The notes under the pieces: generated by a model | What the model was told of the DNA's origin: nothing | Seen by the model: the letters and a program-made list of their open reading frames with translations, nothing else | Databases searched by the model: none | Shown: positions 3,066-43,691 of the stretch, piece by piece | How positions within the stretch are numbered: position 1 is the stretch's first letter | Layout of the letters: each line of letters starts with the position of its first letter | Translations under genes and position numbers: made by a program | From: an uncultured Pelagibacteraceae bacterium | Lineage (GTDB): Bacteria; Pseudomonadota; Alphaproteobacteria; Pelagibacterales; AG-422-B15 | Assembly (NCBI GenBank): GCA_902524795.1 | Contig: CABZEU010000011.1 | Coordinates: 1 to 45,447 of the forward strand | Length of the DNA: 45,447 bases | Reading direction: 5' to 3'

Positions 3066-4319
3066 ATGAGCGACAATTACGTACCAAAGTCAGCAGTTGG
3101 AAAATGGTTTAATGAAAGGTTACCTTTACTAGACCTAATTTATGGACACTTAATGCCATACCCAACTCCAAAAAATTTAAACTATTTTTGGACGTTCGGT
3201 GGAATTTTGACGTTTTGCTTGGTTACGCAAATTATAACCGGCTTAGTACTTGCTATGCACTATGTTGCTGATGCTGATTTAGCTTTTGCTAGTGTTGAAC
3301 ACATTATGCGTGATGTAAACTATGGTTGGTTATTAAGATATATTCATGCAAATGGTGCATCTCTATTTTTTATGGCTGTCTACATTCACATGGCAAGATC
3401 TATGTTTTATGGTTCTTATAAAGAACCACGAGAACTTATTTGGATTATAGGTGTATTTATATTCTTACTTATGATCGCCACTGCATTTATGGGATATGTT
3501 TTGCCTTGGGGTCAAATGAGTTTTTGGGGAGCTACTGTGATAACCAACCTATTTAGCGCAATACCGATTGTTGGAGAGTCTGTGACTAATTGGTTATGGG
3601 GAGGTTATGCTGTCGGCAGTCCGTTGTTGACAAGATTCTTTACCTTGCATTACTTAATGCCTTTTCTTATCTTCGCATTGGTAATTCTTCATGTTTGGGC
3701 TCTTCACGTACCAGGAAACAATAACCCTGAGGGGATCGATGTTGTTAAAGGATCACAAGATACAGTACCATTTCACCCACATTACGTAGTGAAAGATTTA
3801 TTTGCACTTGTTGTGTTTTTAATTATTTTTGCAGGGTTTGTATTTTTCGTGCCAAACCTTCTGGGACATACTGATAATTATATTCAAGCTAATCCACTTC
3901 AAACACCCGAGCATATTGTTCCTGAGTGGTATTTTTTACCTTTCTATGCAATCTTAAGGGCTGTACCAGACAAGCTTGGTGGAGTAATACTAATGGTATC
4001 AGCTATAGCTATTCTTGCTTTCTTGCCATGGCTGGATACTTCAAAAGTAAGGTCAGCAAAATACAGACCTCTCTACAAACAGTTTGTATGGCTCTTCTTT
4101 GCAAACACTATTTTTCTTGGCTACTTGGGAGCGCAAGTAGCAGATGGTATGTATTTAATCATGGGTAGAATTGCCACTGTATATTACTTTGCTCACTTTA
4201 TAATAATTTTGCCTTTGCTTGGGTATATTGAGAAAACCAAGCCGCTGCCTAAAAGCTTGAGCGAACCTGTTTTGTCAAAAGAGGAAAAAGAGATAATTGC
4301 CTCAGGAGCAACTACATAA
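3066..4319 (+). CDS. petB: Cytochrome b of the bc1 complex
   Basis: 417 aa multi-TM protein; [17 protein letters not shown] and [13 protein letters not shown] (PEWY) motifs. Confidence 0.98.
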
Positions 4320-4324
4320 GTTAA

Positions 4325-5098
4325 ATGCAATATTTATCAAAAATATTAATTTTAATTTTCCTACACATTGCCTTATTACAAATTTCTGCTCAAGCGGCGG
4401 AAATGAAAGAGCCTTTGCACCCAGAATGGTCATTCGAGGGGCCGTTGGGTAAGTTTGAAAGAGCTTCATTACAAAGAGGTTACCAAGTTTACACAGAAGT
4501 ATGTTCTGGCTGTCATTCAATGGAATTGTTGAGTTATAGAAACTTAATGGAAGACGGTGGCCCTGAGTTCTCTGAGGCGCAAGTGAAAGCTATGGCAGCT
4601 GCTTTTGAGGTAAAGGGCGCTCCAGATGAGTATGGCGATGTAGTTATGCGACCAGCTATCTTGTCAGATAAATTTGTCAGTCCCTATGAAAACGAACAAC
4701 AAGGAAGAGCAGCCAATGGTGGAGCATATCCTCCGGATCTATCTGTAATGGTTAAAGCACGACATGGTGGAGCAGATTATGTTTATTCATTACTGCTTGG
4801 ATATGAAGATGCCCCTGAGGGCATGGTTCTTGACGATGGTGTATACTACAATATTTACGCTAAGGGACAAAAAATTGCTATGCCACAATTGCTCTCAGCT
4901 GATGCTGTTGAGTATAGTGACGGTACGGAAGCAACTCCAGAACAAATGGCTAGAGATGTTACTATGTTTTTGACATGGACAGCAGAACCTAAATTGGAAG
5001 CGCGCAAGAGAATCGGCTTTAAAGTTATAACGTACCTATTAATACTTTCATTCTTGCTTTACTTTACGAATAAGCAAATTTGGAAAGATTCACACTAG
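4325..5098 (+). CDS. petC: Cytochrome c1
   Basis: Signal peptide, CSGCHS haem motif, C-terminal TM anchor; directly follows petB. Confidence 0.96.
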   Translation: MQYLSKILILIFLHIALLQISAQAAEMKEPLHPEWSFEGPLGKFERASLQRGYQVYTEVCSGCHSMELLSYRNLMEDGGPEFSEAQVKAMAAAFEVKGAPDEYGDVVMRPAILSDKFVSPYENEQQGRAANGGAYPPDLSVMVKARHGGADYVYSLLLGYEDAPEGMVLDDGVYYNIYAKGQKIAMPQLLSADAVEYSDGTEATPEQMARDVTMFLTWTAEPKLEARKRIGFKVITYLLILSFLLYFTNKQIWKDSH

Positions 5099-5248
5099 TA
5101 TAATTATAAAAATACATTTTATTTCAATAATTTAATTTTTTTCTTTACAGTAAGTTGTAAGCTTCGTTATCCACAAGCTGATTAAATCTGTCTCGTAAAC
5201 TATTTTTGATTAATATAAACTCTAAAGTCAACTAGATGGAGGATCTTA

Positions 5249-6538
5249 ATGTTAGAAAATATTTTTAAATTGAATGAAAATGGAACGAGCGTAAGAACAG
5301 AAATTCTTGCTGGGCTCGCTACATTTTTAACAATGGCTTATATCATTGTTGTTAATCCGGCAATATTATCAACTGATGGTACAGGCATGGATTTTGGTGG
5401 CGTATTTGTTGCGACCATTATCGCGGCAGTTGTTGGTTGTTTAGTTATGGGATTATGGGCTAATTGGCCAATAGCACTTGCACCAGGAATGGGACTAAAT
5501 GCATTTTTTGCTTTCGGCGTTGTATTCGGAATGGGCTACACCTACCAGCAAGCACTTGCTGCGGTATTCATTGCAGGAATTGCATTCCTCATATTGTCCA
5601 TAACACCTGCACGTCAGTGGATTATTAATAGTATTCCAAAAAGTATGAAGTTTGGAGTTGGCGCTGGTATTGGTTTATTTTTAGCAATCATTGGCTTAAA
5701 AAATGCAGGAGTTGTTGTCGATAACCCAGCAACTTTAGTGGGACTTGGAGATGTAAGTTCTATGCCTGTTATACTTGCTGCAGTTGGCTTTGCAATAATG
5801 GCCGTTCTTGATAAGAGAGGTGTACCGGGTTCAATCATTATTGGAATACTTGTGGTAAGTGTTGTTGCTTGGATGACAGGGGTCAGCGCAATTGACGGAG
5901 TAGTGGGATCTATACCTCCAGCTGTTCATGCATTTTCAATGGACTTTAGCCTTATTGCAACGGCTGGCTTTATTGGTGTAGCTTTTGCATTTCTTTTTGT
6001 AGATTTCTTTGATACTGCTGGAACGCTAACTTCAGTTGCTAACCTTACGGGAAAAGTTGACCAAGATGGAAATGTTGATGGTATTGGCAAAGCTGTCTTA
6101 GCAGACTCTGCGGCGACGACAGTTGGTGCTTTAGTGGGAACATCAAATACAACTTCTTACATTGAGTCAGGAGCTGGTATTAAAGAAGGTGGCAGAACAG
6201 GCCTTACAGCTGTAACCGTTGCAATTCTTTTTGCTATATGTTTATTTCTTGCTCCATTAGCTCAAAGTATACCATCTTTTGCAACTGCGCCTGCGCTTGT
6301 TTTTGTTGCAACTTTCTTCTTGAAGAATTTGCGCGATATAGAATGGGACGATGTGAGTGAATATGCTCCCGCAGTTTTAGCGGCTGTTTTAATGCCTCTA
6401 ACTTTCAGTATTGCTCATGGTATAGCTCTAGGTTTCATTGCCTATGTAGTGATAAAAGCTTTAAGTGGTAGACATGAAGATCTGAATGCAGGATCTATTG
6501 TAATCGGAGCATTATCCGTACTCTACTTCATCTTTTAA
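5249..6538 (+). CDS. NCS2/AzgA-type purine (guanine/hypoxanthine) permease
   Basis: 429 aa; AGLATFLTMAYIIVVNPAIL, APGMGLNAFFAF, FFDTAGTLTSVA and SNTTSYIESGAGIKEGGRTGLTAV motifs. Confidence 0.93.
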   Translation: MLENIFKLNENGTSVRTEILAGLATFLTMAYIIVVNPAILSTDGTGMDFGGVFVATIIAAVVGCLVMGLWANWPIALAPGMGLNAFFAFGVVFGMGYTYQQALAAVFIAGIAFLILSITPARQWIINSIPKSMKFGVGAGIGLFLAIIGLKNAGVVVDNPATLVGLGDVSSMPVILAAVGFAIMAVLDKRGVPGSIIIGILVVSVVAWMTGVSAIDGVVGSIPPAVHAFSMDFSLIATAGFIGVAFAFLFVDFFDTAGTLTSVANLTGKVDQDGNVDGIGKAVLADSAATTVGALVGTSNTTSYIESGAGIKEGGRTGLTAVTVAILFAICLFLAPLAQSIPSFATAPALVFVATFFLKNLRDIEWDDVSEYAPAVLAAVLMPLTFSIAHGIALGFIAYVVIKALSGRHEDLNAGSIVIGALSVLYFIF

Positions 6539-8686: not shown

Positions 8687-9373
8687 TTAATCTTTAGCTT
8701 CTTCTTTTTTAGCATCATCAGTTGATGCTTCTTTAGCTTCATCAGTTGTTTCCGCTCCTTCTTCAGCTGCTTCTTCACCTTCTACAGGAGTTTCAGGTTC
8801 TTTGACAACAGTTGGCGCGGCAACTGATGCTACAGTAAAGTCACGATCACTAATTGTAGGAGTAATATCGCTTGATAAATTTGCAGCTGATATCCTGATG
8901 GTATCGCCAATATCTAAACCATCTAAATCAAATACAATTTCTTCAGGAATATTATTTGCTGGACAACTTAGTTGTACAGTTCTTCTGTTAACATTAAGAA
9001 CTCCACCACGCTTAAGGCCAGGAGATGACTCTTCATTGATAAATCGAGTTGGTATATCCAGCGTGATTTTTGAGTCTTCTGCCAATCTTAAAAAGTCCAC
9101 GTGAATTGGTTGATCTGAAAGTGGATCAAACTGAACATCTCTGGGGATTGCGAGATTTTTCTTACCAGCGATATTTAGAGAAATAATTCTTGTAAGGAAC
9201 CCGCCCGAGTTGATTTCTTTTTGGACAGAAATTTTATCAAGGGAAATATTAAGAGACTCTTCACCCAATCCATAGATAACAGAGGGAATTTTACCAGAAG
9301 CAATGACTTTTTTTACTGCTGATTTTCCAGACTCTGCTCTTATTTCAGCATCTAAATTTGTTTCTTTTGACAT
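8687..9373 (-). CDS. rplY: Ribosomal protein bL25 / general stress protein Ctc form
   Basis: 228 aa; N-terminal L25 domain, Ctc-type C-terminal domain, low-complexity acidic tail (EGEEAAEEGAETTDEAKEA...). Confidence 0.95.
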   Translation of the reverse strand: MSKETNLDAEIRAESGKSAVKKVIASGKIPSVIYGLGEESLNISLDKISVQKEINSGGFLTRIISLNIAGKKNLAIPRDVQFDPLSDQPIHVDFLRLAEDSKITLDIPTRFINEESSPGLKRGGVLNVNRRTVQLSCPANNIPEEIVFDLDGLDIGDTIRISAANLSSDITPTISDRDFTVASVAAPTVVKEPETPVEGEEAAEEGAETTDEAKEASTDDAKKEEAKD

Positions 9374-35067: not shown

Positions 35068-37083
35068 ATGAAAAAGCGTGGCAGAAAAAAGAAGCAAGTA
35101 AAGCAATCACAAGAGATTCATACATCTCAACCAATCGATCAAGATGGACCTGTTTTAGACTTAGAAAAGTCCATCATAAAAAAGTTAATTAAGCAAGGCA
35201 AGAAAGATGGGTACTTAACAAATGAATTGATAAAAAAATCGTTTCCAGAAGATAAATTTTCCTCTGAGCAAATTGAGCAATATACAACTAAATTATCACA
35301 AGTTGGATTTGATATTATTGACTCAGATGACTCAGATAATGACGATGATAAAGATGAAGATACCCCCGGGATTAAAACAGGATCAGAAAAAACAGATGAC
35401 CCTGTTAAGTTGTACCTTAGAGAAATGGGAACAGTTGATCTTCTCTCGCGAGAAGGAGAAATAGCTATTGCCAAAAGGATTGAGGCTGGACAGGAAGCTA
35501 TGATCTCTGGACTATGTGAGAGCCCACTAACATTAAAAGCAATCCTTGATTGGAGAGACGATATCATAGATGAAAAAATTACACTCAGAGAAGTCATAGA
35601 TCTCGAATCCTTATTTGAAGAGTCTCCAAACAAAAAAGAACTTAGTAAAAAAATTAAAGAAGCAAAAAAAAGAAAGGAACAAGAAGAGAAGGAAGAAATT
35701 AGAAAGCGAAAAGAAGCTGAGAAAAAGTCAGCAACATATGGAGATGATTCTGAACCTATGATAGAAACTTCTGCAGACCAGTCAGTTGAAGAATACGAAG
35801 ACTCAGATGATGAGTTGAATGTTTCTATTGCTATAATGGAAGAGGAATTAAAGCCCATTATTTTAGAAACGTTTAAAAAATTAAATAAAAGTTTCAAAAA
35901 GCTACAAAAGCTTCAACAAGATAAAATTGCTTTTCAAGAAAAAGGTAAAGAATTTCCTGCAAGATCTGAAAAGAATTACCAATTATCTAAAATAGCTGTT
36001 GTTGAATTGATCAAGGGTCTTCAAATAAATACAAATAAAATAGAGGAATTGATTAATAAGCTCTACATAATCAATAAAGAAGTTGTGTCACTTGAAGGTA
36101 AGTTACTTCGTTTAGCTATGCAGCATAAAATCACGCGAGAAGAGTTCTTGGACAAGTATGTAGGTAATGAGAATAACCCATACTGGTTAAGAAAAATTAC
36201 AAGACTTTCGGGGTGGGAAAAATTTGTTAAGTTAGAAAAAAATAATATCAAGAATATTATGAATGAAGTTAGGGCATCAGCAAGTAATATAGGGCTAACA
36301 TTAAATGAATTTAAAAGAATTGTTAGCAATGTTCAGAAAGGTGAAAGAGAGTCCAGTATTGCAAAAAAGGAAATGATTGAAGCAAATCTTAGATTAGTAA
36401 TCTCGATTGCTAAAAAATATACAAACAGAGGTCTTCAGTTTCTTGATCTTATTCAGGAGGGAAATATAGGACTTATGAAAGCCGTTGATAAGTTTGAGTA
36501 TAGAAGAGGATATAAATTTTCAACTTATGCCACATGGTGGATAAGGCAAGCAATTACTCGCTCGATAGCTGATCAGGCGAGAACAATTAGAATACCTGTT
36601 CATATGATAGAAACGATTAATAAAATTGTTAGAACGCAGAGACTCCTATTGAATGACATAGGCCGGGAACCTACTCCAGAAGAAATCTCTATCAAATTAA
36701 ATATGCCTCTTGAAAAAGTAAGAAAGGTTTTAAAAATTGCAAAAGAACCAGTAAGTCTTGAAACTCCTGTGGGAGACGAAGAAGACAGTCATTTAGGTGA
36801 TTTTATACAGGACGACAATGCTGTCATCCCAATTGATGCGGCAATAAATTCTAACTTAAGACAAACAACTACTAAGATATTGTCCTCGCTTACTCCTAGA
36901 GAGGAACGCGTACTAAGAATGAGGTTTGGTATTGGGATGAATTCAGACCATACGTTAGAAGAAGTTGGTCAACAATTCTCTGTCACGAGAGAACGAATTA
37001 GACAGATTGAAGCTAAAGCTTTACGTAAATTAAAGCATCCTACAAGAGCTAAACTACTCAAAAGCTTTTTAGATAAAAACTAA
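35068..37083 (+). CDS. rpoD: RNA polymerase sigma-70 factor (housekeeping RpoD)
   Basis: 671 aa; regions 1.2, 2 ([50 protein letters not shown]), 3 and 4 ([30 protein letters not shown]). Confidence 0.99.
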
Positions 37084-37132
37084 TTTATTAATCTGTAAAT
37101 ACGTTTATTTTTTGTATATAACAAATTTAAAG

Positions 37133-37209
37133 GGGCCCATAGCTCAGTTGGTTAGAGCCCTCCGCTCATAACGGAGTTGTCCTAGGTTCGAGTCCTAGTG
37201 GGCCCACCA
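37133..37209 (+). tRNA. tRNA with CAU anticodon, probably tRNA-Ile2 (lysidine type); CCA encoded
   Basis: GGGCCCA acceptor pairs with TGGGCCC; anticodon arm CTCCG-CTCATAA-CGGAG; T-arm CTAGG-TTCGAGT-CCTAG; A discriminator then CCA. Overall similar to bacterial tRNA-Ile(CAU). Confidence 0.95.
37165..37206 (+). repeat. 42-bp direct repeat copy 1 (3' half of tRNA; att-like core)
   Basis: CTCATAACGGAGTTGTCCTAGGTTCGAGTCCTAGTGGGCCCA, identical to 37358-37399. Confidence 0.97.
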
Positions 37210-37266
37210 GATAATTCAATGACTTAGGTCATATATTCCCAACTTTTATCTTTCGAAATCAAACCC

Positions 37267-37287
37267 GTGCGGGATCTGTGCGGGATC
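37267..37287. repeat. Tandem 10-bp repeat GTGCGGGATC-T-GTGCGGGATC (11-bp period)
   Basis: Exact copies at 37267-37276 and 37278-37287, lying between the two tRNA half copies. Confidence 0.9.
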
Positions 37288-37357
37288 AGCTCTTAAAACT
37301 TAACAATTCCCATTTAATATTTATTGATTTACAATGATTCATTGGTATTGCACGACT

Positions 37358-37399
37358 CTCATAACGGAGTTGTCCTAGGTTCGAGTCCTAGTGGGCCCA
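37358..37399 (+). repeat. 42-bp direct repeat copy 2: tRNA 3'-half fragment (putative att remnant)
   Basis: Perfect copy from the anticodon loop to the discriminator base; no 5' half precedes it, and it is followed by T rather than CCA. Confidence 0.97.
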
Positions 37400-37513
37400 T
37401 CACTTGTTTAAATTCAAACTTATTAATCTATATCGTTTCTTAATTTGATTTTCATTTCTGAAGCCTTATTTAATGAATACAATGATTTTTAGAGACGCTA
37501 AATACTGTTAAAA

Positions 37514-38227
37514 ATGAAAAGTAAGTTATTGTATATTTACGTTATCTTTTTTTTATCTTTATCAAGCTTCATTTACGCCGATGAAAAAGCTGCAAATATT
37601 GAAATCGGTGAGGAATATTATGCGAAACTTTTGAATTCATGGGTAGAAATATTCCCTGACGGTAACAGAAATGCTGCAGGTCCAAAGTTTTTTAGTTTTG
37701 CACTCGAGCAAAGTTTAAATATAGAAGATTTTCTTGAGTATAATAAATTATATTGTGCAGTGTCAGGATCTGTACTTCAACCTGGTGAATCACCAGATTT
37801 TTTAAGTATTTATGAAGATCAGACTAATAATTTAATTTGTGGGGAATATTATAAGTGCTGTTGGCCATGCTCTTGTGACTTAATGAAATATGCTAAAACT
37901 AAGAAAGCAAATTTTATATTTGAAAATTCAGATTATGAATTAAATGTTCTAACAATAAAAGATCCATGTCAAAAAGAGAATTTTCCAATTCAAGTTAATA
38001 AAAATTATTTTTGCAAGAATGAAAAGCTTGATTCTAATCAAGTATTTACTATTGATGGAGATCTCGTTATTGGTTTACTACACAATGCGTCGGAATGTAC
38101 TAAAGAGCAAATAGCTACAATTGCTTCAAATGAAATGACAGGGGCAATGTGTGAAATTAGGAATAATCAATCGATCGAGGAAGTAGAGGGTGGCATGGGA
38201 GACATTTTTATTCAAATGGCAAATTAA
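37514..38227 (+). CDS. Secreted Cys-rich protein of unknown function
   Basis: 237 aa; signal peptide MKSKLLYIYVIFFLSLSSFIYADE; ten Cys including the cluster CGEYYKCCWPCSCD. Confidence 0.75.
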   Translation: MKSKLLYIYVIFFLSLSSFIYADEKAANIEIGEEYYAKLLNSWVEIFPDGNRNAAGPKFFSFALEQSLNIEDFLEYNKLYCAVSGSVLQPGESPDFLSIYEDQTNNLICGEYYKCCWPCSCDLMKYAKTKKANFIFENSDYELNVLTIKDPCQKENFPIQVNKNYFCKNEKLDSNQVFTIDGDLVIGLLHNASECTKEQIATIASNEMTGAMCEIRNNQSIEEVEGGMGDIFIQMAN

Positions 38228-38232
38228 CAAAT

Positions 38233-39678
38233 TTATTTTTGTCTAATTTCCAGAATATTATTTAATTTCAAGTCATTCATCTCAGTGATTGAGCCGTTCG
38301 TCCAAATAACCTCAACCTTACTTATAACTTCATTTTCTCTGATACCATAATGTGCTACAGGCTCCATTTGGCATAAATATCCTGAGCCTGCATCTATTGT
38401 TTTTGCATGAATTCTTTGATCAGAGTGAAGTTTAACAGTTGCACCACGTGCGGGTGCGCCATAAGTATTTAATGGTTTCACTCTTAGCCATCTATGATTT
38501 TGAGCAGTATTTGCTTTGAACATTGATAGAGTTTGCTCTGCTACTTCTCCGTGTGAAATAAGCAATTCCAGGACTCCATCGTTATCTATGTCAGCCACCG
38601 CTGCACCTGTACCTAAACCGTTTGGCTCTGACGCTTCACCAAGCTTTAATTCTATGAATTCTCCATTCTGATCTATTCGAAAAAGTTTATTTGCTTCTCC
38701 GATATTATTGAAGAAAACCTCGTCATAACCATCATTATCAAAATCAGCAGATATTACTGTTCTAACTCTAGTTGGTTCGTTAAAATTTGTTTTAGAAATG
38801 TCTATGAATTTATTTCCTGACCTTACAAAAGCCCTGTGATATCCCTCCCAGTTGCCGCTGATTATATCTAATTGCCCATCATATAAAATATCAGATAATG
38901 CAGTTCCTCTTCCATTCTGTAATTTATCATCTACACCGAACTGTTTGGCAACTTCAAGAAAGACGCCTTCCTTATTTTCGTATAAGAAATTTGCTCCACG
39001 TTCATTAGCTGCAAAAATATCACTGTTATTGGTAATAATGTTTCCTACAACTACTGCTCTACCTCCCGTAATTTTATCTATGTTTAAACTGGGTGCTTTA
39101 TCAACAATACGGTCTTCTTCTAGTTCATAGAAACGAGTGGGACCTCCATAATTAGCAACATATATTCCATATCTACCATTTCCCTTACGGTCAACGCATG
39201 CAACTGACCTACCAGCAGTGTAATTTAATTGTTCCTTATTTTTATTTAATGAGAAGAGATCTTGAAATTGATCATCTTTTTTATCAAGTAAACGATCTGT
39301 ATATAATTTTTCTCCACTATAAGAATCCGTATTTAAAAAGTATATTTCTTCATACCCGTCACGATCAATATCGCATGAAACAACGCCTATAGTCCTGCGG
39401 TCGACATCAGCAAAAATGTCCTTTTCAATGATGTTACTAACGAAACCATTTTTATAACTAAGCGCAATATTTTCTGTTCCAAAGCCCGTAACAATAAATT
39501 CATAATTTCCATCACTATTAATGTCATTTACAGAAATTCCATAACTTAAACGATCTTTGTTGTCATTAATAATACTTGAAATATTTTTAAAAAATTCAGC
39601 ATTTGCGTGACTAAAACTAAAAAAAAATACTATAAGATAAAAAGATAATTGAATTTTATTATTTTTATAACACCGCAT
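38233..39678 (-). CDS. Secreted FG-GAP/VCBS repeat protein with C-terminal ASPIC/UnbV domain
   Basis: Signal peptide; repeated D-x-D-x-D-G blocks (DINSDGNYE, DIDRDGYEE, DFDNDGYDE, DIDNDGVLE); C-terminal GAPARGATVKLHSDQRIHAKTIDAGSGYLCQMEPVAHYGI. Confidence 0.9.
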   Translation of the reverse strand: MRCYKNNKIQLSFYLIVFFFSFSHANAEFFKNISSIINDNKDRLSYGISVNDINSDGNYEFIVTGFGTENIALSYKNGFVSNIIEKDIFADVDRRTIGVVSCDIDRDGYEEIYFLNTDSYSGEKLYTDRLLDKKDDQFQDLFSLNKNKEQLNYTAGRSVACVDRKGNGRYGIYVANYGGPTRFYELEEDRIVDKAPSLNIDKITGGRAVVVGNIITNNSDIFAANERGANFLYENKEGVFLEVAKQFGVDDKLQNGRGTALSDILYDGQLDIISGNWEGYHRAFVRSGNKFIDISKTNFNEPTRVRTVISADFDNDGYDEVFFNNIGEANKLFRIDQNGEFIELKLGEASEPNGLGTGAAVADIDNDGVLELLISHGEVAEQTLSMFKANTAQNHRWLRVKPLNTYGAPARGATVKLHSDQRIHAKTIDAGSGYLCQMEPVAHYGIRENEVISKVEVIWTNGSITEMNDLKLNNILEIRQK

Positions 39679-39714
39679 TACAGCCTTCCATCAATAATTT
39701 AAATTATTCTCTAC

Positions 39715-40878
39715 TTAGCTTATTGTAAAATGCGAGACATTTATTCTTTTAGACAGAAAACCTGCTTTGCAGTACATAAGGTAAAAAGACCAGATTTTTT
39801 TAAACCTACCATTAAACCCTAGTTTAGAAATTTTTTCCCAATTTATTAAAAATTGTTCGTGCCATAAATCCAGTGTTCTTGCATAATCTTGAGCAAATGA
39901 TCTTTTTTTTATCATTGTTAAGTTGCAATTATTTGTAATCATTTCTAATTTTTTTTCACTTGCCATCATTCCTCCTGGGAAAATATAAGATTGAATAAAA
40001 TCAATATTGTTTTCATAAAAGTTAAAATATTTGTTATCGATAGTGATAGTTTGAATTAACGCTTTTTTATTTGGCTTTAGAAAACTCTTAATTTTTAAGA
40101 AATAGCTTTTCCAGAACTCCTTTCCAACAGCCTCAAACATTTCAATAGAAACTACGGCATCAAATTTCATATCAAATTCTCGATAATCTTTTTTTATCAC
40201 ATTTGTGTTACTTATATATTTTTTTAATCTTTTTTTTGAGAAATTATATTGTTCATCAGAAATAGTAATACCAGTAACATTATACCCCTTCGAAGCAGCA
40301 TACTCCATAAAACCACCCCATCCACAACCAATGTCAAGAATATGGTCTCCAAAATTAAGTTCAAGACTATCAATAATTTTTTGATATTTCATTTCTTGTG
40401 CCTCAGATAAACTGATTTTTTGATCATCAAATAAAGCTGCTGAATATGTCATTGTTCTGTCAAGCCACAAACTATAAAAATCGTTTCCAAGATCATAGTG
40501 AGCTTGAATATTATTTTTACTTCCTTTAACGGTATTTTTATTTAATGCATGTTTAAGATGATAAAACATTTTTAAATACTTTCTTCCACCTGCAATGGTC
40601 TTAATTTCATTAAGATTATGTGAAAAAAATATCATTAATTTTGATATATCTGGAGTTGATAAATAATTTTTAAAATAAGATTCTGCTAACCCAATGTCAC
40701 CTTTAGTTATGCATAGCCAAATTGCTTTCCATGAATGAATTTCTAATTCTGCATAGTCATCACCATATCCATATTTATAAAAGTGTTTATCTGGATAAGT
40801 AATCTTTATTGAACCAAAGCTAATCTTTTTAAATGAATTATTAATAATACTTTTAAGTATTTTATTCAGCATAACCAT
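39715..40878 (-). CDS. Cyclopropane-fatty-acyl-phospholipid synthase family SAM methyltransferase
   Basis: QAHYDLGNDFYSLWLDRTMTYSAALFDD, ILDIGCGWGGFMEYAASKGYNVTGITIS, SIEMFEAVGKEFW, YIFPGGMM. Confidence 0.93.
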   Translation of the reverse strand: MVMLNKILKSIINNSFKKISFGSIKITYPDKHFYKYGYGDDYAELEIHSWKAIWLCITKGDIGLAESYFKNYLSTPDISKLMIFFSHNLNEIKTIAGGRKYLKMFYHLKHALNKNTVKGSKNNIQAHYDLGNDFYSLWLDRTMTYSAALFDDQKISLSEAQEMKYQKIIDSLELNFGDHILDIGCGWGGFMEYAASKGYNVTGITISDEQYNFSKKRLKKYISNTNVIKKDYREFDMKFDAVVSIEMFEAVGKEFWKSYFLKIKSFLKPNKKALIQTITIDNKYFNFYENNIDFIQSYIFPGGMMASEKKLEMITNNCNLTMIKKRSFAQDYARTLDLWHEQFLINWEKISKLGFNGRFKKIWSFYLMYCKAGFLSKRINVSHFTIS

Positions 40879-41593
40879 TGCCTTTGTGAGGATAAACCCT
40901 GAGCTTTTTCATCCATAATTTGAGCGCTTGAAGATGTATTCTTGGAATTACCATCAATGAATTTAATGACAACTTGGCAAGATATATAAAAAAATTTATA
41001 GAATTAGTTTTTTTTATCTTACCTTTTAAATTTGTCATTATCTCTAAATTATTATTTTTATTAAATTGATTTATTTTTATTTCCAAATTAGGCAAGCTTT
41101 TTAACATAAATTTATATTTACCAATTTTTTCAGAAAAAGGAGATACATACATAATTTTCGATACATTATACCAATTGGTATTATTAATTACTTTTCCATT
41201 ATTATGAATATAATAAGTTTGTTTTTCTCTAAAAGTGTTTGTAACTTCAGCTATGTAAGCAATTATATTGTCTTCTATTTTTAAAAACCAAAAGCATACA
41301 GGATTGAAAGAATTTTTGAATGAATTAGGCGTTTTCAGTAAATCTATAGATGCACATTTTTTATTGATATCATGCTTTTTTATAAAGTTTTGAAACCAAT
41401 TAATAATATTTTGATTTATAAATTTGGAATTAAAATCATAAGAAAGTGTGAAACTAAGCTCGTTAAACGCGCCATTTTTAAAATTAAATACATCTTCGTT
41501 ATAAATGCTTGTATATTTATAAATAAACTTATGTTTTTTTGGAAATGATCGGTTGTGCAAGACAGTCCCATCAAATATGTAACTTTTAATCAT
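40862..41593 (-). CDS. DUF1365 family protein
   Basis: 243 aa between a FAD amine oxidase and a Cfa-like gene; NPVCFWFL, EVTNTFREKQTYYI and VSKIMYVSPF motifs. Confidence 0.88.
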   Translation of the reverse strand: MIKSYIFDGTVLHNRSFPKKHKFIYKYTSIYNEDVFNFKNGAFNELSFTLSYDFNSKFINQNIINWFQNFIKKHDINKKCASIDLLKTPNSFKNSFNPVCFWFLKIEDNIIAYIAEVTNTFREKQTYYIHNNGKVINNTNWYNVSKIMYVSPFSEKIGKYKFMLKSLPNLEIKINQFNKNNNLEIMTNLKGKIKKTNSINFFIYLAKLSLNSLMVIPRIHLQALKLWMKKLRVYPHKGNGYAE

Positions 41594-41645
41594 TAAAAAT
41601 ATTGTTTATTTTCGTACTAACTCTCGCACCCGATTCAAACCCGTC
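41586..41645 (-). other. In-frame coding-like extension of the FAD protein past its TAG stop (DGFESGARVSTKINNIFND*)
   Basis: Read in the same frame as 41646-42797; ends with TAA 41586-41588, overlapping the ATG (41591-41593) of DUF1365. Confidence 0.75.
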
Positions 41646-42797
41646 CTAATGAAATCCATATCCCAAATACGCCCCGGCATAAAAAATATTATTTTTTCCT
41701 TGTATCTTTTCTATTTCTATTTGTCCCTTTAAAGTATTTCTAGAAAAAATTATATGTTCATAGTTAATTCTTTTAAGTACATTTTTTATTTTTAGATCTG
41801 AAATATCTCCAACTGTAACAAATAAGTTATCTTTGGTGTCCAAGCTTTGAAGACTATTCATCCAGTATGTCAGATATTTCCTATTCTCAAAATCAAATGA
41901 ATTCCACGAGCTCCAATTTTCCCTCTTAAGTGGCATTAATTGTTCATCTTGATGAAGAATGACATTATTATTAGAATATTGAAAATTGTTCATGACAAAA
42001 TTTTCTTCTTTGTCTCGGTTAAGTAAAATTTTTTTTATTTGATTAATATTACAGGTAAAGACTACATAATCATATTCAGCATTAAATTTACTTGAAATTA
42101 ATTTGATTTTGTTTTGTTTTTTTTCAATTTTAATATTTTCTGAAAGATAAATGTTTTTTATATTTGAATTAAATATGAACTTTTCTATATATGCCTTACT
42201 TCCATTATCTAAAGTAAGCCACTGCGGGCGATTGATTAATTTCGTTAAACCGTGATTTTCAAAAAAATTTAATAAAGTAGATGCAGGAAATTCAGTAATT
42301 TTATTGTTTAGAGTTGACCAAATAGCTGATGCCATTGGAAAAATATATTGATCTGAAAATTGTTTTGAAAAATTATTTTCTTTTATCCATTCAATGATTG
42401 ATTTATTTGTATTTTTTTTATTTCTAGCACATTTATTGAATTTCAAAATATTTAGAAAAAAAATTAAGTTTGATAATGTAAAATAGTATTTAAGTTTAAA
42501 AAAGTTTTTTGAACTCCAAGAAGTATCATTATTGCTAAAACTATAAGACATATCAGATTCATTTATTTTGAGTTTAAATTTTTTAAATACCTTTAAAAGA
42601 TCTTTGTAGTTTCTGTCATTAAAAACTATAAAACCTGTATCAACATTTATATCTTTGTTTTTAATTTTAATGTTGTGAGTATGTGTATGACCTCCCATCC
42701 TGTCATTGCTGTCGTACATGTCAATTTCTATCTTTCTGTTTAGGTGATATGCTGTAGACAACGCAGATATTCCAGTACCTATTATAGCAATTTTCAT
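41646..42797 (-). CDS. FAD-dependent amine oxidase-like protein (COG2907-type), apparently truncated by TAG 41646-41648
   Basis: IAIIGTGISALSTAYHL, YDSNDRMGGHTHT, VDTGFIVFN; ends ...IFYAGAYLGYGFH*, mid-way through a conserved C-terminal motif (see findings). Confidence 0.9.
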   Translation of the reverse strand: MKIAIIGTGISALSTAYHLNRKIEIDMYDSNDRMGGHTHTHNIKIKNKDINVDTGFIVFNDRNYKDLLKVFKKFKLKINESDMSYSFSNNDTSWSSKNFFKLKYYFTLSNLIFFLNILKFNKCARNKKNTNKSIIEWIKENNFSKQFSDQYIFPMASAIWSTLNNKITEFPASTLLNFFENHGLTKLINRPQWLTLDNGSKAYIEKFIFNSNIKNIYLSENIKIEKKQNKIKLISSKFNAEYDYVVFTCNINQIKKILLNRDKEENFVMNNFQYSNNNVILHQDEQLMPLKRENWSSWNSFDFENRKYLTYWMNSLQSLDTKDNLFVTVGDISDLKIKNVLKRINYEHIIFSRNTLKGQIEIEKIQGKNNIFYAGAYLGYGFH

Positions 42798-42842
42798 ACT
42801 TCAAGTTATTGATTAAATTATAATTGATTTTAAGATGACATT

Positions 42843-43691
42843 ATGAGTATGACAATAAAAGTATCTGAACAAGCATGCGGTGCTTCAATTACTGGAATTG
42901 ATTTAACTAGAACACTATCAGATATCGAAATTAAGGAGATAAGGGCGTTATGGCTTGAACATCACGTACTAAGTTTTCCAGATCAAGCAATAAACGATGA
43001 CGAACTAGAGAGGTTCACACTTTATTTTGGAAATTTTGGCGACGATCCCTTTATCGCTCCTATTTCTGGGAGAAATAATATTATTGCGGTTAAGAGAACA
43101 GCCGATGAAAAGGTTCCAATTTTTGCTGATAATTGGCATACAGACTGGAGTTTTCAAGAAAACCCTCCAGCGGGTACTTGTCTTTATGGAAAAATTATTC
43201 CAACTCAAGGTGGTGATACCTTATTTGCCAATCAACATTTAGCATTGGAAAAAATGCCATCTTTGCTTAGAAAAAAACTTGAGGGAAAACAAGCAATACA
43301 TTCAGCCCTTGTACCTTATTCCCCTGGTGGTGGTTATGGAGATAAAGATAGAGAAATGGGAAGAAGTATGGATATACGAGCTTCTGATGAAGCATTTTCA
43401 AAACAATTACATCCTATAATTAAACAGCATCCTGAAACAAAACGAGAGGGAATTTATGGTACGATAGGTTACATCATCGGTATTGATGGGATGGATAATC
43501 AAGATGCACTAAAATTACTGATGGAGTTAAGTGCTTGGCAGTGCCAAGATGAGTTTATCTATAAGCACAAATGGAAAAAAGATATGTTAATTATGTGGGA
43601 TAATAGAAGTGTATTACATAGAGCAACAGGAGGCTATGAAGGTCAAGAAAGACTATTACATAGAACAACAGTTGCCGCATATGGAAAATAG
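42843..43691 (+). CDS. TauD/TfdA-family 2OG-Fe(II) dioxygenase
   Basis: NWHTDWSF (HxD), GGDTLFANQH, MWDNRSVLHRATGGYEGQERLLHRTTV (distal H and R). Confidence 0.95.
   Translation: MSMTIKVSEQACGASITGIDLTRTLSDIEIKEIRALWLEHHVLSFPDQAINDDELERFTLYFGNFGDDPFIAPISGRNNIIAVKRTADEKVPIFADNWHTDWSFQENPPAGTCLYGKIIPTQGGDTLFANQHLALEKMPSLLRKKLEGKQAIHSALVPYSPGGGYGDKDREMGRSMDIRASDEAFSKQLHPIIKQHPETKREGIYGTIGYIIGIDGMDNQDALKLLMELSAWQCQDEFIYKHKWKKDMLIMWDNRSVLHRATGGYEGQERLLHRTTVAAYGK

Follow-up and report, generated by a model that had tools for sequence, protein, structure and literature searches.

Cassettes targeted to tRNA genes are already known from other streamlined aquatic bacteria, as far as the available portions of the relevant reports describe them. 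In Candidatus Actinomarinales, cassettes are closed by a repeat of a tRNA fragment (PMC7771536), and in Ca. Methylopumilus tRNA-closed units of 330 bp to 42 kb make up additive islands (PMC10872708). Tycheposons, in the available part of the same account, span 4-200 kb and contain a tyrosine recombinase (PMC10872708). A further class of mobile units, termed 'hitchers', comprises non-autonomous units that depend on the recombinase of another element and includes CALIN and MITEs (PMC11389934).

Here we analyse a window of 45,447 nucleotides from a SAR11 (Pelagibacterales) genome of 1.1 Mb in 35 contigs (G000), in which part of a tRNA gene is duplicated a short distance downstream of the gene itself. 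With a probability of about 0.8, we read this feature as a tRNA-targeted cassette that is devoid of both cargo and integrase, in a full explanation that would include mobilisation in trans and loss of the cargo through the cassette's own repeats. The proposed layout would consist of attL (the intact tRNA and a left end), a single arm-type repeat pair, and attR (a right end and the displaced tRNA 3' half).

Results

An intact tRNA gene with a CAU anticodon (Met or lysidine-type Ile) lies at 37133-37209 on the forward strand (ARAGORN; Rfam RF00005, 69.3 bits), downstream of rpoD (sigma-70; 35068-37083, forward strand, an ORF of 671 aa), which forms the conserved upstream flank of the site, the rpoD-tRNA junction being kept by almost every genome in the genus. 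The block running from the anticodon loop to the discriminator base of this tRNA (37165-37206) recurs at 37358-37399 with 151 bp between the copies, confirming the perfect 42-bp direct repeat reported in a preliminary description of this DNA; since the best match of the 42-mer elsewhere in the window, on either strand, reaches only 23/42, the repeat is not due to chance. The identity block holds the tRNA 3' end, with an intact tRNA at one end of the interval and a 3' fragment at the other. The second copy had been described as having no CCA, and an intact CCA is indeed absent, but the motif has been mutated by a single substitution (ATCA, against ACCA in copy 1) and is not simply missing. As the displaced copy still ends in CCA in most relatives, the identity block is really 45 bp long and has acquired one mutation in an unselected fragment. 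In the proposed layout the intact tRNA is the attL side and integration target, and 37358-37402 (forward strand), comprising copy 2 and its mutated CCA (TCA), is attR, or the displaced 3' end of the original tRNA; its downstream flank is that of the intact tRNA in two relatives (G031 and G014) with empty sites. The core block is found unchanged in dozens of SAR11 contigs, and in the genome collection the exact 42-mer occurs in 34 stretches, all of them SAR11 (Pelagibacteraceae or Pelagibacterales) and mostly from single-cell genomes named AG-....

The perfect conservation of 42 bp could also be expected if copy 2 were a functional RNA, such as a tRNA-like fragment or a processing signal, with no recombination behind it. 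This we consider extremely improbable, given that copy 2 and the spacer are both absent from G031 and G014, that the CCA is mutated here, that the displaced core copy has decayed to 35/42 in G007, and that, aside from the tRNA and an antisense match over it that falls below threshold, no Rfam family covers copy 2. A terminator-like site covering copy 2 was likewise not found, and both the RNA-function and terminator readings were rejected.

Among the genomes of the genus, 42 of 44 match the query, mostly as the rpoD-tRNA junction. G031 and G014 contain precise empty sites, as would be left by the absence of a tRNA-targeted integrative element: the counterpart of window positions 37000-37209 abuts that of 37358-37620 at a single tRNA, with nothing between. 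Because these real empty sites have no spacer of any kind, the earlier suggestion that the 151-bp spacer represents a minimal empty site is refuted; the companion suggestion of an att-like scar left by a collapsed element is supported by the precise empty sites, by full cassettes in relatives and by the anatomy of the ends. One or two 3' copies follow the tRNA at 12 of the 35 loci in which it is complete, a count that includes the window. Cassettes of 0.55-1.55 kb, singly or in tandem runs of two (or more), occur at the same tRNA in no fewer than 11 further species of the genus, and each is closed by a tRNA 3' copy. The interval between core copies measures 547-1547 bp in these relatives, compared with 151 bp in the window. 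Arrays reach a depth of two intervals where the full tRNA is present, and in G030, whose contig begins inside the array, three core copies stand in a row. Cassettes mostly carry one gene each, encoding FkbM and TylF methyltransferases, a 4HBT thioesterase, lipoprotein-like proteins and unknown proteins. The preliminary description had anticipated a cargo island in sister strains; cargo is present at this tRNA, but in small tandem cassettes of mostly one gene and not in a large island. It had also proposed to look for variable insertions, regarding an identical 151-bp spacer in every relative as contrary to its reading; such insertions are found, and the spacer is not shared by all relatives. 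Cassettes of the same design occur at a second target, tRNA-Lys(UUU), in G009 (two), G003 and G023, this tRNA being single-copy in most other genomes examined.

Several further observations concern the variability of these loci. The genes at L113:1998-3065, L135:1048-2418 and L135:2625-3797 (all on the minus strand) and the cassettes of G023, G009 and G003 share one cargo family, found at both tRNA sites, that combines a variable N-terminal half with a strongly conserved C-terminal half and a coiled-coil-like end (LKAQIAEINTQLKALNMLAMN). No Pfam or PDB relative of this family was found, and it looks like a surface protein with an exchangeable head. At the window's tRNA in G028 (contig C7, locus L046), a left end with repeats is followed by no recognisable second core within 4.5 kb, a putative eroded or longer insertion. 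The window itself contains an extra stretch at 37400-42843, with a 237-aa protein lacking a Pfam match and FG-GAP-like and cyclopropane-synthase-like genes; in several relatives the TauD-like gene found at window position 42843 directly follows the tRNA, so the whole stretch downstream of the tRNA is variable.

Most cassettes possess at each end a pair of 9-11-bp direct repeats with a period of 11, the left pair beginning about 48-50 or 57-61 bp past the left core and the right pair ending about 70 bp (in some cases about 100-106 bp) before the right core. The repeats are of several types (GTGCGGGATC, GTGCAGTCAT, CTGCAGGCCAT and GTCGTCATCTG) that vary between cassettes and agree across the two ends of any one cassette: for 16 cassettes, with near-duplicates and the window left out, the observed left/right agreement was 226 compared with 198.5 (sd 5.9) by permutation (p=5e-5). 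Clear matched pairs are lacking in G022, G037 and the first cassette of G034. A search of 398 Pelagibacterales genomes with the GTGCGGGATC arm motif returned 6 matches, all within these cassettes, and among 386 genomes drawn from the class the window's arm motif was found in the window only. By sequence and spacing, the pairs represent candidate arm-type sites on both sides of the core.

Comparisons with the adjoining rpoD gene show that these cassettes have moved between species, for cassette identity lies far above that of the flank: the FkbM cassettes of G022 and G037 are 98.4% identical beside rpoD genes at 78.9%, and the thioesterase cassettes of G038 and G020 are 96.9% identical beside rpoD genes at 81.4%. 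Alignment of the thioesterase cassette of G038 (L044) with those of G020 (L055) and G011 (L067) also revealed that the cargo, repeats and right end are about 97% alike, while the stretch from the core to the left repeat is of different sequence and differs in length by 11 bp; with the same cargo behind divergent stretches, left ends seem to be exchangeable. SAR11 recombines readily. Following rare insertions long ago, the cassettes might have spread mainly by ordinary homologous recombination between the conserved rpoD-tRNA and tRNA 3'-copy flanks, in which case the repeats would be relics. This would accommodate both the left 50 bp that can differ under the same cargo and the lack of a resident helper integrase, but we regard it as unlikely, since it sits poorly with cassettes 97-98% alike next to rpoD genes only 79-81% alike, with end repeats that co-vary within cassettes, and with ends of the same kind at the second target, tRNA-Lys.

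The window's spacer can be resolved into the same components. Profile R1, made from the left ends of 9 other cassettes and not from that of the window, recognises the left end of the spacer, from the CCA to TTTCGAAATCAAA (37207-37263, forward strand), with a score of 62.4 bits (E=1.6e-18) and has no further match in either the window or the G000 genome. There follows at 37267-37287 (forward strand) a paired direct repeat of period 11, GTGCGGGATCT-GTGCGGGATC, which from its spacing to both cores is a putative arm-type integrase site. It begins 60 bp past core 1 and ends 70 bp short of core 2, as left and right pairs canonically do in other cassettes, and is probably a hybrid of a left and a right pair. 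The remaining 37288-37357 (forward strand) constitutes the right end, whose in-register identity to other right ends exceeds that of all 5000 dinucleotide shuffles (p=2e-4, the floor) and is best at offset 0 for four of the five cassettes tried (G020, G038, G027 and G034). In register, the 91 bp before core 2 share 55/91 positions with the right ends of G020 and G011, and the 69 bp beyond the window's repeats share 40/69 with that of G027; blastn joined 37267-37402 to the G020 and G011 right ends at 77%. R2, the right-end profile of the main family, gives no score in the window, so it is in-register identity that carries this assignment, and the right end belongs to a diverged subfamily.

A left end, one repeat pair and a right end are together what a cassette would leave behind after deletion of its cargo from between the repeats, which is probably the origin of this spacer. 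The deletion most likely took place by in-register recombination between the left and right repeat pairs. A parent with cargo was not found for the window's cassette, so the unit may instead always have been a minimal, MITE-like element, with two att ends and one arm pair, that moves as 193 bp and never had cargo here. Every end feature is intact in form and spacing, and the arm pair is perfect and undecayed, as such an origin would predict; nevertheless, of the 20 cassette intervals known in the genus, only that of the window consists of ends alone, and the other strong R1 left-end matches lead into longer intervals; we consider a minimal origin quite improbable.

None of the cassettes contains a recombinase ORF among its cargo, and the window's unit is for this reason classed as a non-autonomous derivative rather than an autonomous element. 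A search of the genus with PF00589 returned almost only Xer-type (XerC/XerD) proteins; with resident integrases beyond these nearly absent, either an outside source or rare elements must provide the recombinase. Integrases with an Arm domain (PF13356) were found in 5 of 398 Pelagibacterales genomes, and G240, G102 and G393 contain integrase-bearing elements of 17.3, 7.7 and 8.9 kb, respectively, at tRNA-Thr. In each, a core copy running from the anticodon loop to CCA lies at both ends. A period-11 pair is placed between the tRNA and the Arm-DNA-bind_3 integrase, at a distance of 93-96 bp from the core, and its matching counterpart stands 79-80 or 110 bp ahead of the far core; the two pairs are alike inside any one element but not from one element to the next. 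The repeat of G102, TTTGTAGTCAATTTGTAGTCA, nearly equals the right pair of the G003 cassette (TTGTAGTCAATTTGCAGTCA). Pfam assigns Arm and catalytic domains to the G102 integrase, and DUF5906 to a second protein. Given this shared anatomy, arm-type integrase sites are the best reading of the cassette repeats, and the cassettes themselves are best seen as having the same att architecture minus the integrase. Since they encode no recombinase, the integrase is most likely supplied in trans, which would make the cassettes non-autonomous elements.

The preliminary description had pointed to an integrase whose attP contains the 42-mer; none was found in the genus, viral contigs or phage records. Viral contigs contained neither the exact 42-mer nor arm repeats of three kinds, and an integrase with GTGCGGGATC repeats was absent from the 398 Pelagibacterales genomes, the 386 genomes drawn from the class and the viral contigs. 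Phage records matching the core were merely tRNA-like sequences of unrelated phages. Two other recombinase loci were observed. A phage-like region of G007 (contig C1, L137) encodes an Arm-DNA-bind_3 integrase (4434-5681) with a period-11 pair, TGGTGTAAATATGGTGTAAAG, upstream at 4268-4290; the 11.5-kb stretch around it contains no tRNA gene, and relatives of this integrase were absent from viral contigs and distant (below 60% identity) in phage records. In G031 (contig C14, L138:3195-9190), an element containing two tyrosine recombinase-like ORFs and a Rep-like ORF lies on the 5' side of tRNA-Gly, with a 54-bp repeat (3226-3279 and 9137-9190) over the 5' half of that tRNA and not its 3' half.

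Discussion

SAR11 is among the most abundant bacterial groups, and its genomes are streamlined with few resident mobile elements, which makes the route by which it gains genes an open question. In the mechanism that we propose, a full cassette would insert site-specifically into the block from the anticodon loop to the 3' end of the CAU tRNA, rebuilding the tRNA and shifting the old 3' half downstream, and successive insertions would generate tandem arrays. Movement would be driven by an Arm-domain tyrosine integrase acting in trans from a phage, satellite or island whose own arm sites match those of the cassette, and in the window a subsequent in-register exchange between repeat pairs would have removed the cargo. 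The chances appear evenly balanced that SAR11 maintains a pool of mostly one-gene, integrase-free cassettes that dock at tRNA genes, with end repeats serving as an address for visiting phage or satellite integrases; such a pool would amount to integron-like gene exchange in the absence of a resident integrase, with the window representing a spent cassette. If this is true, SAR11 would have a concrete route of gene gain, in which visiting integrases move mostly single-gene cassettes by their addressable att ends, and the route could be tested both in culture and in metagenomic reads. The anatomy of the ends also offers a search key: a tRNA 3' copy, a period-11 pair at a fixed distance, and a matched pair at the far end.

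With the integrase-bearing islands at tRNA-Thr in the same order, the cassettes share the span of the core, period-11 pairs at both ends and matching of pairs within an element. The islands differ in their size (7.7-17.3 kb), their own Arm-DNA-bind_3 integrase, the DUF5906 protein of G102, the tRNA occupied and the distance of the left pair from the core (93-96 bp, compared with about 48-61 bp in cassettes). CALIN and MITEs resemble the SAR11 cassettes in being non-autonomous, with a recombinase encoded elsewhere, and in arrays of mostly single-gene cassettes. Their boundaries are attC sites or transposon inverted repeats, however, whereas those of the SAR11 cassettes are tRNA 3' halves with arm-type repeats. 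Assignment to integrons or CALIN was rejected on account of these boundaries and the almost exclusively Xer-type PF00589 proteins of the genus, and assignment to MITEs because no inverted repeats bracket the spacer beyond the palindromic tRNA 3' end itself. Tycheposons, too, carry cargo between tRNA boundaries in marine bacteria and have a link to tyrosine recombinases; against the range of 4-200 kb and the recombinase given for them in the available text, the SAR11 cassettes span 0.15-1.55 kb (151 bp in the window, 547-1547 bp in relatives) and have no recombinase, and they were not assigned to this class.

The additive flexible-island cassettes are likewise small units at a tRNA with a direct repeat of its 3' part in streamlined aquatic bacteria. 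The SAR11 loci conform to their definition as given in the accessible part of PMC7771536: the tRNA is conserved, the units beside it vary, and a partial repeat of the tRNA closes every unit. The available descriptions of the Actinomarinales and Methylopumilus islands (PMC7771536, PMC10872708) contain no account of matched arm-type pairs at fixed distances from the core, of an emptied unit, or of an integrase acting in trans. Relative to the open-access literature in this accessible form, what the SAR11 cassettes add is the anatomy of matched arm pairs, the likeness to integrase-bearing elements of the same order, a putative dependence on integrases in trans with none resident, and a unit that has probably been emptied of its cargo.
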